A model generated the notes under the pieces. The model was not told where the DNA came from. It saw only the letters and a list, made by a program, of their open reading frames with translations, and made no database searches. The position numbers and the translations under genes are program-made. A stretch of 64,000 nucleotides of DNA from assembly GCA_030425645.1 (NCBI GenBank), contig JAUHZK010000008.1, positions 1-64,000 of the forward strand. The letters are read 5' to 3'. This stretch comes from Gammaproteobacteria bacterium. Its GTDB lineage: Bacteria; Pseudomonadota; Gammaproteobacteria; JAPPPA01. This document shows positions 1 to 5,627 of the stretch, one piece after another; position 1 is the first letter of the stretch; each line of letters begins with the position of its first letter.

Positions 1-388
1 ATGGAACACCAACCTGGCGAGAAAGCAGGATGTGCTCGCGAGTCTGAGGCATAGGGCCGTCAGCTGCGTTAACAACTAGAATAGCGCCGTCCATCTGCGC
101 CGCACCGGTGATCATGTTTTTAACATAGTCAGCGTGGCCTGGGCAGTCTACGTGGGCGTAGTGACGGTTTTCAGTTTCGTACTCAACGTGAGCAGTTGAG
201 ATGGTAATACCACGCTCACGCTCTTCTGGGGCGTTGTCGATTTGATCGTAGGCTTTAGTCTCGCCACCAAACTTCTTCGCTTGGCAAACGGTTAGAGCCG
301 CTGTCAATGTGGTTTTACCATGGTCTACGTGGCCGATGGTGCCAACATTCACATGGGGTTTATTACGTTCAAACTTTTCCTTGGCCAT
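1..388 (-). CDS. tuf: Elongation factor Tu, 5' part (runs off window start)
   Basis: EF-Tu delivers aminoacyl-tRNA to the ribosomal A site as a GTP complex in the cytoplasm. The visible 129 codons start [19 protein letters not shown] and contain the P-loop GHVDHGKT, the switch I region (ERERGITI) and the DCPGH G3 motif, all canonical. A strong Shine-Dalgarno (GGAGG, complement of 397-401) lies 8 bases before the ATG at 386-388. Upstream on the same strand are tRNA-Thr, tRNA-Gly and tRNA-Tyr, the classic tufB arrangement, so this is the tRNA-linked tuf copy. The gene is cut by the window edge, so the GTPase end, domain II and domain III are not seen. Confidence 0.97.
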
Positions 389-479
389 TGCGACAACCTC
401 CGGAGTTAAGCGTTAAGCCTTTAATACAAAATCAAACACTTGCCACAGCAAGCACATAAAACTCATAGCAACACAATAA

Positions 480-555
480 TGGTGCCCATGACCAGAATTG
501 AACTGGTGACCTCACCCTTACCAAGGGTGCGCTCTACCGACTGAGCTACACGGGC
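480..555 (-). tRNA. tRNA-Thr (anticodon GGT)
   Basis: The minus strand folds as a standard 76-nt cloverleaf beginning GCCCGTG. It has the GTTCAATTC T-loop, an encoded 3' CCA and anticodon GGT in the loop TTGGTAA. It is the last tRNA before tuf, equivalent to thrT of the E. coli tyrU-glyT-thrT-tufB operon. Confidence 0.97.
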
Positions 556-594
556 GCATTCTTGCACTGTCGACAGCCCAGCTGTCTAATCAAT

Positions 595-668
595 TGGAGC
601 GGGAGACGGGAATCGAACCCGCGTCATCAGCTTGGAAGGCTGGGGTTCTACCATTGAACTACTCCCGC
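595..668 (-). tRNA. tRNA-Gly (anticodon TCC)
   Basis: A 74-nt cloverleaf on the minus strand, with acceptor GCGGGAG pairing with CTCCCGC and an encoded CCA. The anticodon loop is CTTCCAA (TCC) and the T-loop is GTTCGATTC. It is equivalent to glyT in the tRNA-tufB operon. Confidence 0.97.
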
Positions 669-725
669 CTAACCGCTCACTACAAAGGCCTGACACTCAC
701 ATAACAAGCATCAAGCCTTTAAATA

Positions 726-810
726 TGGTGGAGGGAGAAGGATTCGAACCTTCGTAGGCATAGCCGGCAGAGTTACAGTCTGCTCCCTTTGACCGCTCGG
801 GCATCCCTCC
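726..810 (-). tRNA. tRNA-Tyr (anticodon GTA)
   Basis: An 85-nt class II tRNA on the minus strand with a long variable arm, encoded CCA, anticodon GTA (loop CTGTAAC) and T-loop GTTCGAATC. It is equivalent to tyrU and is the promoter-proximal tRNA of the tyr-gly-thr-tuf transcription unit. Confidence 0.97.
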
Positions 811-892
811 AGATGTCCTTATGGTGTTTTAGGTCCACCCGACCCCGCTTTAAAACCATTAAAAACGGTCCAGCCCTGCTGGAAGGGCGCAT

Positions 893-921
893 ATTCTCTT
901 GATGCGACCCCTCACTGTCAA
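893..921 (-). promoter_or_regulatory. Sigma-70 promoter of the tRNA-Tyr-Gly-Thr-tuf operon
   Basis: On the minus strand a perfect -35 TTGACA (916-921) is separated by 17 bases from GAGAAT (893-898). It is followed by a GC-rich discriminator (GCGCCC). This layout is typical of stringently controlled stable-RNA promoters. It lies about 85 bases upstream of tRNA-Tyr and downstream of the four-gene GTPase module, so tuf does not depend on transcription through that module. Confidence 0.75.
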
Positions 922-1007
922 CAGCAAATGTACTTTTTATGGAATTGTTTTCTAATGTCGGCTTTTTTTTGACCGAGCTACCCAGCTAGGGCGGCATCAA
1001 AATCAGC

Positions 1008-1436
1008 TTATCCCGCTTCAGATAGGCGCTTCTGGACCGCCTGCAGCTCAGTCAATAATTGTTGCCGGCGGTACTCCAATATCCGCACATCATTCGCGAT
1101 TTGCTGGATTTGCTGTTTTTCCGCGTACTCTTGCTGGGCCGCAAACCAGATCACCAAATAGCCTTGCTCATTTTTTTTGATGCAGCAGTGCGCACTAACC
1201 CCGGCTGGCGTCATTAAAAACGGCCAAAGATGCTCACTCTCACCGGCCTCAAACTCAAAACCGTGCAGCTCTGGCGCCACATCCACCAACTCAACACCAA
1301 GCGCCAATTCCGTGTAACCGTAGCGCTCAGCATCACCCCACAACTGACAAACCTTACCCGCACTATCAACCTCTACACATAGCGGTGAATAGTAGCGTTC
1401 TGCCAATTCCCAAACTGTTAACGGGTACTCACGCAT
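1008..1436 (-). CDS. PAS-like protein with C-terminal coiled coil, last gene of the GTPase module
   Basis: A protein of 142 residues from the ATG at 1434-1436; an in-frame TTG lies one codon upstream. Residues about 8-100 have the alternating pattern of a small sensory PAS-like fold (a 'dsaGkv' turn, then a 'GvelvdvaPEL' segment and a strand-rich end 'GYLVIWFAA'). Residues about 103-140 form a charged, Gln-rich coiled coil. No enzyme motif is visible. It starts 12 bases after the small GTPase gene and is very likely co-translated with it. I infer a sensor or adaptor that oligomerises through the coiled coil. I recognise no named family with certainty, and the PAS assignment is by pattern only. 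Confidence 0.7.
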   Translation of the reverse strand: MREYPLTVWELAERYYSPLCVEVDSAGKVCQLWGDAERYGYTELALGVELVDVAPELHGFEFEAGESEHLWPFLMTPAGVSAHCCIKKNEQGYLVIWFAAQQEYAEKQQIQQIANDVRILEYRRQQLLTELQAVQKRLSEAG

Positions 1437-1450
1437 CAAGTATTACCAAA

Positions 1451-1948
1451 CTAAGGCAGGGCCGACGCCAGCCGCTCAAAGGCCAGCTCCACATTGGCAC
1501 TGGTCGAGGCACTGGTCTTAATCCAACGACTATCAGCAGACGCCAATGCTGGGTGCGTCTCTTCAATTTCCCATTCATCTACCAAGTCAGCCTTATTAAG
1601 TAGACCCACCCAAGGCAGATCTCCCATTTGCTGCACAATCGAGTCTTTAAGCTTCAAAGCGTTGTCCAGCGTATAAGCACGGGTACCATCCGCCACCAAC
1701 AAAAAGCCTGCCATGCCACGCAAATAACTACGGTAGACAGCATTCGCCTCCTCGGTGCCGGCTATATCCCAAATCACCAACTTCATCGGTGCGCCATTTA
1801 CCTCAACCACCTTGGTATCAATTTTGACACCGACGGTTGTTAAATAACGGTCATCAAAAATTTCTCGGACATAGCGATTGACCAAGCTGGTTTTGCCAAC
1901 TCCAAAGTCACCGATCAAACACAACTTCCTTGTTAATTCAGCAGCCAC
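1451..1948 (-). CDS. Ras-superfamily small GTPase (Rab/Rup-like)
   Basis: A single 165-residue G domain with all the nucleotide-binding motifs: G1 GDFGVGKT (13-20), switch I threonine in TTVG (T38), G3 DIAG (61-64), G4 NKAD (118-121) and a G5-like TSAS (145-148). It resembles eukaryotic Rab proteins and the bacterial small GTPases related to MglA more than translation GTPases. The residue after DxxG, normally the catalytic Gln of Ras/Rab, is Thr65, so intrinsic hydrolysis may be poor. There is no C-terminal cysteine for lipidation. The start is GTG with a good AGGAG about 6 bases upstream. It sits 9 bases after the roadblock/OmpA-like membrane protein, a plausible regulator or effector. The exact family needs a tree. 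Confidence 0.9.
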   Translation of the reverse strand: MAAELTRKLCLIGDFGVGKTSLVNRYVREIFDDRYLTTVGVKIDTKVVEVNGAPMKLVIWDIAGTEEANAVYRSYLRGMAGFLLVADGTRAYTLDNALKLKDSIVQQMGDLPWVGLLNKADLVDEWEIEETHPALASADSRWIKTSASTSANVELAFERLASALP

Positions 1949-1957
1949 AATTTTCTC

Positions 1958-3880
1958 CTAAAGGGTTATTGCTAATGCTGGCAATGGCTGTTGCTTCAAG
2001 ACAACGCCAACCGCATCGACAGTATCCGACTGAACCAATTCTTCACTAGGCTGAACCACCACCTCAAGCATCACCGCTTGCTGCTGCAATAGACCGCGCA
2101 ATTTTTCGGCCCGCCGAGCGGCCAACTCAGTGGCATCATGAAACAACACCACTCGCGCATCAATTTCGTCGGCCGCGAGTTCAATCCAGCGTTTTAAGCG
2201 ATCTGCCAGCTGCTGCATCGAGGCCCAACCCGCTGGCGACATTACTACACCGGTCGCAAATTCCAAATCCTGCTGCGCCACCAAATCACCCAACCGTAAC
2301 AACTCAGACGCCCTAACGCGCCGTAAAGCCGATGTATCAACCTCGGTAAACATCAGCAAATTACCGGCATACCAATGCCGAAGCTCTTCAGCCAACAACA
2401 ACTCGTCCGCCATTTCCACACGCCCCGTCAGCTGCAACACCTGACCCTGCAACTTAGCCTGAACACCACTAGGTAAGCGGTCAGCCAACCACTTGGCAAG
2501 CTCAGCCTCTGGCACCACCACCAAGCCTACATCAGGGTGCGGCAGGCCCAAGTGAGCCAGCGCGCGCATAGATTGAACCCAAGCCATCGACGCCTCCCCA
2601 TGAGCACGCCAACGACCATCACGCAAAACCAAGTCAACAGATGGGGGCACTGACCAGTGCTCACGCTTGTCCGCCACAGCCGCCTCGGGCAAAGCTGACC
2701 GGTAAGGGGCAAAAAGCCAATCCACTTCCGGCACCAAACCTTCTGGCAAATAATCACCTTGGTCAACTATGCCAAACACTGGATCGTACAAGCCCCGAGC
2801 CAACAACACGTCGCCCCGCACAACCCAGTCCATGACAATTAAATCTTCACGCAACTCCAGCTGCTGCTTGACCGCCTGAAGCTGTTGATGCTGATGCCAT
2901 TGCTGCCAGCCATTCCAAGCAAAAAACGACAACAAAGCCACCAACAGCAGCCACCAAAACCATAGTCGCGACTTGATTCGGCCTTTCGGCTGCAATTGCC
3001 GCGCCCCCTCCAAACTCCCCGCAATCAGATCTTGAAGTTCCTCAACCAACGGCTCGACCATCTTGCCATCGGCAGCAAATGCACTGATTTCCTCGGCATA
3101 GTCCACATGCAAACGCTGCAACAGCTCATCCATATCCTCTCTAAGAGAGACAGGCGGCGTTCCATGCACTACCACCGCAAATGACATACGGCTACCGTTA
3201 ATCACCCATACCATGCGACCGCCGATTTCAACTTCTTCTAGCTGACCATCGCCAACCGCAAAGGAGTCACGCACAAAGTCTTGAATCGCCGTGAGCATCG
3301 CCGAGACCGCATCATTGTCGACCTTAGAGCGCCCACTAGAGGAAGCATGCGCGACTAGCAAACCCGAGTCGTTATGGATCAGAAAGGCCTCTTCCACCAC
3401 GTAAGGCAAGGTATGACGCATAATCAATTGCGCATAGGGCACACCAGTACGCCACGCCTCCCAACGCCAGCGCAGACCATCCATCGACAGACTGTGTTCA
3501 ACTGCCTGGTTAATAGCCTGATTGAAACCTTTCAGCGCATTGGTAATCGCTTTACGAATAGCCGCCCCAATCATCGGCGACAAGGCTTCGGCAAAGCTAT
3601 CCTTATCTGCGCGAACGGACTCTTTAACACTTTCCGCTACCACCGCATTTAAGGCCCCAGCCAAGGCCTCGCGCTCGCTCGATTGAGCCAAATCTAAAGA
3701 CTCCGCCAACAGCGGTGCCAAATGCTCGGGGGTTAACTGCTGCTGAGCCAACTCCTGACGCAAAGCATCCAGTTGACGCTGCAACTCAGCTACATGCTGC
3801 TGCTCATCACTGAGTAAAGCGGCACGTAATGACTGTAAGCGCTGTTCGGCGCTAGTATTTTCAGGCTTCGCCGTTTTCAA
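1958..3880 (-). CDS. Membrane protein with coiled coil, roadblock/LC7-like region, TM helix and OmpA-like C-terminus
   Basis: 640 residues. Residues 8-50 are a coiled coil and 60-130 are helical and Ala-rich. Residues about 158-270 look like a roadblock/LC7 fold ('VEEAFLIHNDSGLLVAHAS', 'LEEVEIGGRMVWVI', 'FAVVVHG'), the fold of MglB-type partners of small GTPases. Residues 306-323 are one hydrophobic transmembrane helix. Residues 345-640 would be periplasmic and end in an OmpA/MotB-like segment ('RVVLFHDATELAARRAEKLRGLL') that could touch peptidoglycan. The start is TTG and overlaps the end of the preceding coiled-coil gene by 20 bases; the GTPase gene follows after 9 bases. I infer a transmembrane link between a cytoplasmic GTPase switch and the cell wall. 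The domain calls are by eye. Confidence 0.8.
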   Translation of the reverse strand: MKTAKPENTSAEQRLQSLRAALLSDEQQHVAELQRQLDALRQELAQQQLTPEHLAPLLAESLDLAQSSEREALAGALNAVVAESVKESVRADKDSFAEALSPMIGAAIRKAITNALKGFNQAINQAVEHSLSMDGLRWRWEAWRTGVPYAQLIMRHTLPYVVEEAFLIHNDSGLLVAHASSSGRSKVDNDAVSAMLTAIQDFVRDSFAVGDGQLEEVEIGGRMVWVINGSRMSFAVVVHGTPPVSLREDMDELLQRLHVDYAEEISAFAADGKMVEPLVEELQDLIAGSLEGARQLQPKGRIKSRLWFWWLLLVALLSFFAWNGWQQWHQHQQLQAVKQQLELREDLIVMDWVVRGDVLLARGLYDPVFGIVDQGDYLPEGLVPEVDWLFAPYRSALPEAAVADKREHWSVPPSVDLVLRDGRWRAHGEASMAWVQSMRALAHLGLPHPDVGLVVVPEAELAKWLADRLPSGVQAKLQGQVLQLTGRVEMADELLLAEELRHWYAGNLLMFTEVDTSALRRVRASELLRLGDLVAQQDLEFATGVVMSPAGWASMQQLADRLKRWIELAADEIDARVVLFHDATELAARRAEKLRGLLQQQAVMLEVVVQPSEELVQSDTVDAVGVVLKQQPLPALAITL

Positions 3881-4184
3881 GCTTATCCGCCACTGATCTC
3901 AGCAGAGCGGCCAAGTCATTCCGCGGAGTCGCCTTATCTGCTTGTGTTTGCAGCTTTAATTCCAGATCTGCCATTTGCCGATCGAGATCCACCGCGCGCG
4001 CCTCAAACGCTTGCATGGTTTCCGCAATCGCGTCTTGCGCCGCTTTTAAGCGCAATTCAATATCAGTTAATTCTTCCCCAAGCAGCGCCGTACGAATCTG
4101 CCCTAGACGACGTTCCGCCCAGTCAGCAGTCGACAAACTTTCTTGTCCATCCACTTGGTTTTGGTGATTACCAGAATCGGTCAT
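3861..4184 (-). CDS. Small coiled-coil protein, first gene of the GTPase module
   Basis: 107 residues, hydrophilic, with no signal peptide or membrane segment. Residues about 20-88 are a long coiled coil. Its 'AERRLGQIRTALLGEE' (24-39) closely matches 'AEQRLQSLRAALLSDE' at residues 11-26 of the downstream 640-residue protein, so the two probably share an oligomerisation segment. The ATG at 4182-4184 follows a G-rich Shine-Dalgarno (GGGGG), and the stop overlaps the TTG start of the next gene, a coupling arrangement. Upstream lies only tRNA-Thr(TGT) with no clear terminator between, so the module may be read from the tRNA promoter. Function unknown; an adaptor is the simplest reading. Confidence 0.75.
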   Translation of the reverse strand: MTDSGNHQNQVDGQESLSTADWAERRLGQIRTALLGEELTDIELRLKAAQDAIAETMQAFEARAVDLDRQMADLELKLQTQADKATPRNDLAALLRSVADKLENGEA

Positions 4185-4486: not shown

Positions 4487-5062
4487 TTAACGACGTTCAA
4501 ACACCTTGTCTTGCTCTGTTTTGTCGGCCGCCGCCGCAACCACCAAAGGCGTTTTGCTCATGGCTTCATAACCAGCCAACAAATCCACCGGCACAAAAAA
4601 CAACTGTTCGGCGTCGCGCTTTACCGTGGCCGCTATTGGCCGCAACAGCTTCCGCGCCAAGGGGATTCCCGGCTCCATTGCCTGCCATAGGCGCTGGCCG
4701 TCATCTCGAAACTTCAGATCTGTGAGCGCATACCAAGAAAACAACCAAACTGAGACACCACTAGCCACGGCTTCCAGATTAGGGCTGCCGCTTTTCATTA
4801 GACTATTTCTTAGGCCCAGCAATTGCGCCTCAAAACCGTCGGCAGCTAGGGTTTCAGCATCGGTGTAGCGACCGGAATAAAACGCTTCAGGGAATCGTTG
4901 ATGGCAAGCTGGCAGTTCTTCAATGTACGCTCGGGCCAACATCGTCGCAGAAACCAGCTCAGCTAACTCTTGCTCATGCGCGGCCTCGGCCGTGGCAATG
5001 AAGCTCGCCAACTCCCGCTTTAGGCGCCTAACGAACAAGCCTGCTCTGATTTTTTTTAGCAT
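4487..5062 (-). CDS. Hypothetical protein, 191 residues
   Basis: I do not recognise this family. The N-terminus (MLKKIRAGLFVRRLKRELA) is a basic amphipathic helix, followed by a helical acidic stretch to about residue 50. A hydrophobic patch near 'SVWLFSWYAL' (about 104-113) is too short for a convincing membrane segment, and the C-terminus is charged. No enzyme motif is visible. The start is supported by AGGAG five bases upstream of the ATG (5060-5062). It lies upstream of tRNA-Thr(TGT) and downstream of the broken SPOR-like gene on the same strand. In Pseudomonas the SPOR-like gene is next to the tRNA-tuf cluster, so this gene is extra relative to that layout. Confidence 0.65.
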   Translation of the reverse strand: MLKKIRAGLFVRRLKRELASFIATAEAAHEQELAELVSATMLARAYIEELPACHQRFPEAFYSGRYTDAETLAADGFEAQLLGLRNSLMKSGSPNLEAVASGVSVWLFSWYALTDLKFRDDGQRLWQAMEPGIPLARKLLRPIAATVKRDAEQLFFVPVDLLAGYEAMSKTPLVVAAAADKTEQDKVFERR

Positions 5063-5180
5063 TCGACTCCTAAGGCTTTAGCCGTAGCGACTCAACGATT
5101 TATGCATCTCACTCCAGCTAGAGATTGTACCCTCAAAAGAATGCCCAAAAATCACCGCTCAGTCGGCTGAAAGCTACCGT

Positions 5181-5627
5181 CTAGTCGCAATTTAGCGCGC
5201 GCTCAAGCTCCTCTGGCTTAGCGCCGTGAAGTCGACCGTTTTGGCGCGCTTTAACCCAAAAGCGGTCCGGCACCAGCAAAATAGCGGCGTCCAGCAAGCC
5301 ATTCGCCGCCAGCTCGGCCGAGGTAAACAGCTCAACATCGGCACCTGCCTGCTGCAACCGGTTTAGCAACTTAGCTGCCGCCAGTGCTCACTCATGCGGG
5401 CCAAACACACGACAGACACTTTTTGCCGCTGGTTTTGGTCGTATATCAACAACGGGCGGTGCGGCCACGCCCTGAGCTTTATCGCTAGACCGATCAACAC
5501 TGGCCATGGCTTGTTGCAGTTGCGCCCTCGCCACCTGCTCCGCGCTCAACACAGTCAGCAATAACAGCGTCACATTGGCCAGCAATAACGCTAGCAACCC
5601 TAACGCTAATGGCCTTGGCATGCCCAC
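5181..5627 (-). pseudogene. SPOR-like membrane protein gene interrupted by an in-frame TGA
   Basis: The reading frame starts at GTG 5625-5627 (or ATG at 5619-5621, MPRPLALG). It has one N-terminal membrane helix rich in Leu, a Pro/Ala linker and then 'CRVFGPHE'. A TGA at 5388-5390 stops it. The same frame then continues without a shift as 'ALAAAKLLNRLQQAGADVELF' and runs to 5181, about 148 codons in total. CRVFGP followed by a helix with rL and a strand is the usual SPOR pattern for peptidoglycan-binding proteins, and a SPOR-like gene follows coaX in Pseudomonas. So this is one gene with a nonsense codon, a sequencing error or, least likely, read-through. It overlaps the coaX end by about 22 bases. 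Confidence 0.75.

Follow-up and report, generated by a model that had tools for sequence, protein, structure and literature searches.

A published counterpart of the locus analysed here is the Group 1 Rup neighbourhood, in which a coiled-coil protein is encoded together with a Rup GTPase without the G3 Gln and an output module in which one Gln is invariant (PMC4316618). The architecture "domain of unknown function – TM helix – OmpA" was noted for these loci in 2014, and the same authors suggested that the output Gln could replace the missing catalytic Gln of the Rup GTPase (PMC4316618). By 2014 no Rup-family GTPase had been characterised experimentally. Searching the literature available without subscription, we found no later characterisation of one, and no work beyond the 2014 paper on Rup systems or on bacterial longin-OmpA proteins.

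Other known systems share parts of this arrangement with the protein studied here, P0001. MglA-MglB of Myxococcus and Thermus pairs a bacterial roadblock-class domain with a small GTPase, but MglB is free, whereas the P0001 domain is longer, longin-like in its predicted fold and Robl_LC7-negative, and sits in a membrane-spanning protein with a Rab-like partner. The actinobacterial conservons (CvnA–D) are likewise operons of a membrane signalling component, a roadblock-class protein, an unknown protein and a small GTPase; there the membrane protein is a histidine kinase and the roadblock protein is soluble, whereas here the predicted longin-fold protein itself spans the membrane. Longin-type GTPase platforms are usually regarded as archaeal and eukaryotic, and in Ykt6 and Sec22b the longin domain lies N-terminal to a membrane anchor. 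These two proteins, Mon1-Ccz1 and the TRAPP core resemble P0001 in the longin fold predicted for it, being among its best Foldseek matches, and in a Rab-like GTPase partner; P0001 differs in being bacterial and in its periplasmic OmpA-type arm, and no sequence similarity to them was found. Finally, the C-terminal domains of MotB, Pal and OmpA correspond to the P0001 tail in predicted fold and by family-level profile match, but the copy studied here lacks the loop carrying the peptidoglycan-binding Asp.

The window, that is, the whole stretch of DNA analysed, comprises the first 64,000 nt of contig JAUHZK010000008.1 from a gammaproteobacterial assembly. The original prediction described an ORF at 1958–3880; the frame and its residue numbering held, and its strand is the minus strand, the plus strand there being full of stops. 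The 640-aa ORF runs from 3880 to 1958, begins with TTG, and overlaps the 3′ end of the upstream P0003 gene by 20 nt at its start. It is the second gene of a four-gene operon encoding a coiled-coil protein (P0003), P0001, a Rab-like GTPase (P0002) and an output protein (P0004), with the following features:

3861..4184, minus strand: gene 1, P0003, small coiled-coil protein of 107 aa; an ORF with the motif xxIRxxLxG lies directly upstream of most P0001 relatives
1958..3880, minus strand: gene 2, P0001, coiled coil, predicted longin/roadblock-fold domain, TM helix, periplasmic alpha/beta modules and OmpA-like tail
3500..3880, minus strand: P0001 residues 1–127, helical/coiled-coil N-terminus with LRxLLLGxE motif (36-member alignment)
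2993..3400, minus strand: P0001 residues 161–296, predicted longin/roadblock-fold domain, E-E-H-E-E-E-H-H (AlphaFold2, Foldseek, invariant residues)
2909..2965, minus strand: P0001 residues 306–324, single TM helix, N-terminus inside (hydrophobicity and charge)
2318..2842, minus strand: P0001 residues 347–521, predicted periplasmic alpha/beta modules, BON/secretion-ring-like (OsmY, CdsD; AlphaFold2, Foldseek)
1991..2311, minus strand: P0001 residues 524–630, degenerate OmpA-like C-terminal domain, loop with the peptidoglycan-binding Asp absent (AlphaFold2, Foldseek, alignment)
1451..1948, minus strand: gene 3, P0002, Rab-like small GTPase of 165 aa (Pfam Ras, G-motifs)
1008..1436, minus strand: gene 4, P0004, shortened output protein, N-terminal domain and helix with invariant Gln
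1101..1103, minus strand: codon of the invariant Gln in the P0004 N-terminal domain (17/17 aligned outputs)
949..1081, strand not applicable: deletion junction interval, joining sequence about 2.7 kb apart in the same-genus genome L040

The operon is flanked by a tRNA-Thr gene on its upstream side and, downstream, by genes for tRNA-Tyr, tRNA-Gly, tRNA-Thr and EF-Tu. The host assembly (2.75 Mb, 99.5% complete) carries a single copy of the P0001 gene, for which Pfam, NCBIfam and PADLOC searches returned nothing useful. The N-terminal part of P0003 is similar to the first ~90 residues of P0001 in a shuffle test (500 shuffles), with none of the shuffles scoring as well in the sister-species pair and 18/500 doing so in the window pair.

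Judged by gene order and by its GTPase and output motifs, the operon is a Group 1 Rup neighbourhood. It has in common with the published set the coiled-coil gene (P0003 and its upstream counterparts, the coiled coil being judged from sequence), a gene for a domain followed by a TM helix and OmpA (as found in P0001 by alignment and by a TM scan of the family), a Gln-less Ras-like GTPase and an output with an invariant Gln; it differs in that the output enzyme of the window appears to have been deleted and the OmpA binding residues lost. Because the same neighbourhood was published in 2014, the three-part architecture of P0001 was already known (PMC4316618). What is new is the fold assignment, since the cytoplasmic domain was left unassigned in 2014 and is here predicted to have a longin/roadblock fold, and the truncated-output variant.

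Nor is the arrangement unusual, as had been supposed: it was described in 2014 (PMC4316618), and, counting the window's own genome, 24 of the 274 genomes searched in the class have a P0001 match. One of these 24 matches (L062, in genome G122) was too weak to count and was left out, its open frame not resembling a relative. One genome of the same genus, that of a sister species (L040), encodes a P0001 relative at 53% identity, and 13 further loci come from Alphaproteobacteria, Verrucomicrobia, Planctomycetes, Actinobacteria, Acidobacteria and a Beggiatoa (taxa as recorded). The cultured species Rhodopila globiformis (L007) is among the organisms with a P0001 relative. The family alignment comprised 36 P0001 sequences; of the 36 loci carrying P0001 or a relative, 32 yielded a GTPase gene. 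Three relatives (in L005, L046 and L050) are 916–974 aa long, with the periplasmic module repeated several times and a second copy of the N-terminal motif.

The P0002 gene lies directly downstream of P0001, and its product matches Pfam Ras at 1.1e-30; its nearest solved relatives are Rab proteins. The motifs read GDFGVGKTS (G1), WDIAGTE (G3, without the catalytic Gln), NKAD (G4) and SA (G5), and the aligned relatives of P0002 also have no Gln at the G3 position. No other close Ras-type small GTPase was found in the host genome, where the remaining Ras-profile matches were much weaker and fell in frames of 448–870 aa. In two loci from actinobacterial MAGs (L010 and L011), a single reading frame encodes the GTPase together with the output N-terminal domain and an HD-like domain, and this natural fusion supports contact between GTPase and output. 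The P0001 relative of the same two loci is a soluble 291-aa form without TM helix or OmpA domain, which argues that the longin-fold part is the core of P0001.

We modelled residues 128–300 of P0001 with AlphaFold2, using the 36-sequence alignment, and obtained a mean pLDDT of 83.3 and a pTM of 0.74, with elements in the order H-H-E-E-H-E-E-E-H-H-H. All 50 of the 50 Foldseek matches listed from the PDB belonged to the longin/roadblock/TRAPP/adaptin-sigma class or were complexes holding such a domain, led by Ykt6 (E 1.4e-4) and Sec22b (9.2e-4) and including Mon1-Ccz1, Rag C-terminal domains, TRAPP, adaptin sigma and MglB; the E-values, from 1.4e-4 to 5e-3, are modest, and compact single-domain matches have target TM-scores of about 0.4–0.74. 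The family alignment shows this region to be the most conserved portion of P0001, with A198 and G240, as well as R139 just before the domain, invariant in the 36 sequences. These results predict that the cytoplasmic domain belongs to the longin/roadblock fold class, a new assignment for this protein. A roadblock/LC7 domain had been proposed for residues 158–270. The fold class of that proposal is supported by structure prediction, and its roadblock type is not supported by profile comparison: hhalign, run with the domain against 30 Robl_LC7 domains, gave no significant match (probability 2%, E 0.023). Robl_LC7 (PF03259) was likewise not among the 25 Pfam families most often matched by the 36 members, any match outside these 25 being to one member at E above about 0.08, and a profile search of the host genome found no Robl_LC7. 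A PDB sequence search with the cytoplasmic-domain profile gave nothing above chance level; a Roadblock/LC7 protein was among the matches, at E=0.73.

The single TM helix that had been placed at residues 306–323 was confirmed as the sole strongly hydrophobic stretch of P0001 (306–324, score 2.01; next best 1.20), and it was kept in at least 33 of the 36 family sequences. Five K/R residues precede it and one follows, and P0001 is therefore predicted to be N-in/C-out. Beyond the membrane, an AlphaFold2 model of residues 330–640 (pLDDT 86.4) contains alpha/beta modules at 347–521 similar by Foldseek to BON (OsmY) and secretion-ring (CdsD) domains, followed at 524–630 by a tail with the fold of an OmpA C-terminal domain (5wtp_A, probability 1.00, E 8.5e-3). 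A profile of the family tail retrieved 85 PDB sequences at E<=1, with solved OmpA-family domains ranking first (best 2.5e-19), and Pfam OmpA was found in the periplasmic parts of 20 of 21 family members. The exception was the window copy, with no match to Pfam OmpA (PF00691) up to E=10. In the window genus, a shorter loop takes the place of the GH(S/T)DxxGxxxxN segment: the Asp column, D in 20/23 sequences, holds T in the window copy and E in the sister species, and the G column (G in 21/23) and the N column have been deleted. All 23 of 23 sequences retain the Arg of LSxxRA, and the final Arg is lost in the window genus. Since Asp and Arg form the diaminopimelate-binding pair of OmpA domains, loss of the GxxD...G...N loop and of the final Arg makes canonical peptidoglycan binding by the window tail doubtful. 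The expected OmpA/MotB-like C-terminus is thus present as a predicted fold and in the family profile, while the window copy itself gives no Pfam match and lacks the binding positions. A Ras/Rab-like GTPase gene does adjoin P0001; the physical link once envisaged between a GTPase and the cell wall is likely for most relatives and doubtful here, where the OmpA domain is degenerate.

P0004 is 143 aa long and has no kinase, and so lacks the enzymatic domain of the Group 1 Rup output. Its sister-species counterpart is a 506-aa protein comprising HisKA, HATPase and receiver domains, and the next gene there has a product that is receiver-like in the middle and GGDEF-like at the end (judged by eye, not by profile); output enzymes at other loci are of the HD-domain or SpoIIE type. 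Window positions 1–949 align with L040 3187–4134, and those from 1081 onward with L040 from 6954 onward, so that the window is short of about 2.7 kb relative to L040. The simpler reading of this alignment is that a deletion of ~2.7 kb removed the kinase/receiver half of the output together with the diguanylate-cyclase gene, and it is preferred because the full-length output form is widespread. We also considered relocation of the kinase half elsewhere in the genome and rejected it, its best matches being only about 30–33% identical; the best matches elsewhere in the genome to the missing halves were only about 31–34% identical. What remains of P0004 ends cleanly and keeps Q112, which is invariant in 17/17 aligned outputs; from its position, we infer that this is the same invariant Gln as in PMC4316618. 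Searching the PDB with the N-terminal domain of the output yielded no match, and "PAS-like" therefore stays a guess for this domain.

Three other readings of these data have to be weighed. The cytoplasmic domain might be an ordinary MglB-type roadblock (an N-terminal helix followed by E-E-H-E-E-E-H) serving as the GAP of P0002. In favour of this, the known target of MglB is a small GTPase, MglB structures are among the Foldseek matches (3t1r_A, target TM-score 0.57), and a short helix does precede the first strand of the model. That helix is only 9 residues long, however, and the model has a long, confident C-terminal helix (277–297), as in longins. Longin domains, moreover, align over their full length with target TM-scores of 0.70 (Ykt6; 138 columns, 137 residues) and 0.74 (Sec22b), whereas MglB aligns over 108–116 columns at 0.47–0.57, and the Robl_LC7 sequence signal is absent. 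Compared with the roadblock order alpha-beta-beta-alpha-beta-beta-beta-alpha, the model matches in its core, with its N-terminal helix reduced to those few residues and a C-terminal helix in addition; the longin order beta-beta-alpha-beta-beta-beta-alpha-alpha is that of the predicted model. The two classes are distinguished by the origin of the last helix (PMC10933270, PMC3521125). On these scores and helix lengths we favour a longin-type topology and consider the MglB-type roadblock unlikely. The sequence gives no support to calling P0001 a roadblock/LC7 protein; the reading we prefer is that it works in the manner of a roadblock/longin platform.

The remaining two readings concern what such a protein would do. 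As a passive envelope tether or scaffold of the MotB/TolR kind, P0001 would merely localise the GTPase and leave its nucleotide state unregulated, as its TM helix and OmpA-type periplasmic end might suggest; roadblock domains are scaffolds in many eukaryotic complexes, which also fits such a role. Yet the part of P0001 that is most conserved is the longin-fold part, and the L010 and L011 forms keep it without TM helix or OmpA domain, so that anchoring is not a constant function of P0001; we think a purely passive role not very likely. The whole operon could, alternatively, be a functionless relic decaying after the deletion, with the output enzyme and cyclase gene gone and the OmpA tail degenerate. 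Against this, all four ORFs are open, and the GTPase G-motifs, the invariant Gln, the TM helix and the longin-fold invariants are kept. The OmpA changes, for their part, are common to the sister species, which retains the full kinase, and hence are older than the deletion rather than a sign of accompanying decay. Decay of the operon as a whole thus seems improbable to us.

We instead think it probable, though well short of certain, that P0001 serves as the membrane platform in a GTPase operon of the Group 1 Rup type, one that has lost its enzymatic output in this genome. In this platform model, the predicted longin/roadblock domain would bind P0002 and control its nucleotide state, as gene order and the behaviour of longin/roadblock domains elsewhere suggest, while the N-terminal coiled coil of P0001 may pair with P0003. 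The TM helix would lead to the BON-like modules and the OmpA-type tail, which may grip or read the envelope. In complete systems the GTPase would act on the N-terminal domain of the output enzyme (histidine kinase-receiver, HD or SpoIIE phosphatase), presumably switching it through the Gln-bearing domain. The window genome would then hold a set of receptor, platform, GTPase and docking domain without an enzymatic output of its own; the P0004 domain that is left might partner the GTPase by itself, or the set might be a remnant. More tentatively, it is possible that a membrane-spanning longin protein widespread in bacteria is a dedicated regulator of a Rab-like GTPase, an envelope-wired counterpart of Mon1-Ccz1/TRAPP, which here would form an enzyme-free switch with the Gln domain as stand-alone partner or GAP.

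The longin/roadblock assignment names a likely, directly testable regulator of the Gln-less Rup GTPases. A bacterial, envelope-linked, Rab-paired version of the longin domain would bear on the origin of the longin-GTPase partnership, and the truncated variant, by separating switch from enzyme, offers a natural experiment.

Two observations were made upstream of the operon. At 4487–5062 on the minus strand, the window encodes a 191-aa protein without a Pfam match, present singly here and as two adjacent relatives in the same-genus genome. At 5160–5625, also on the minus strand and just downstream of a coaX-like gene, a frame that would encode a hydrophobic helix at the N-terminus and a short domain at the C-terminus contains one in-frame stop; the matching stretch of the same-genus genome (L040 11698–11940) is open, and the interruption looks like either recent pseudogene formation or a sequencing error.
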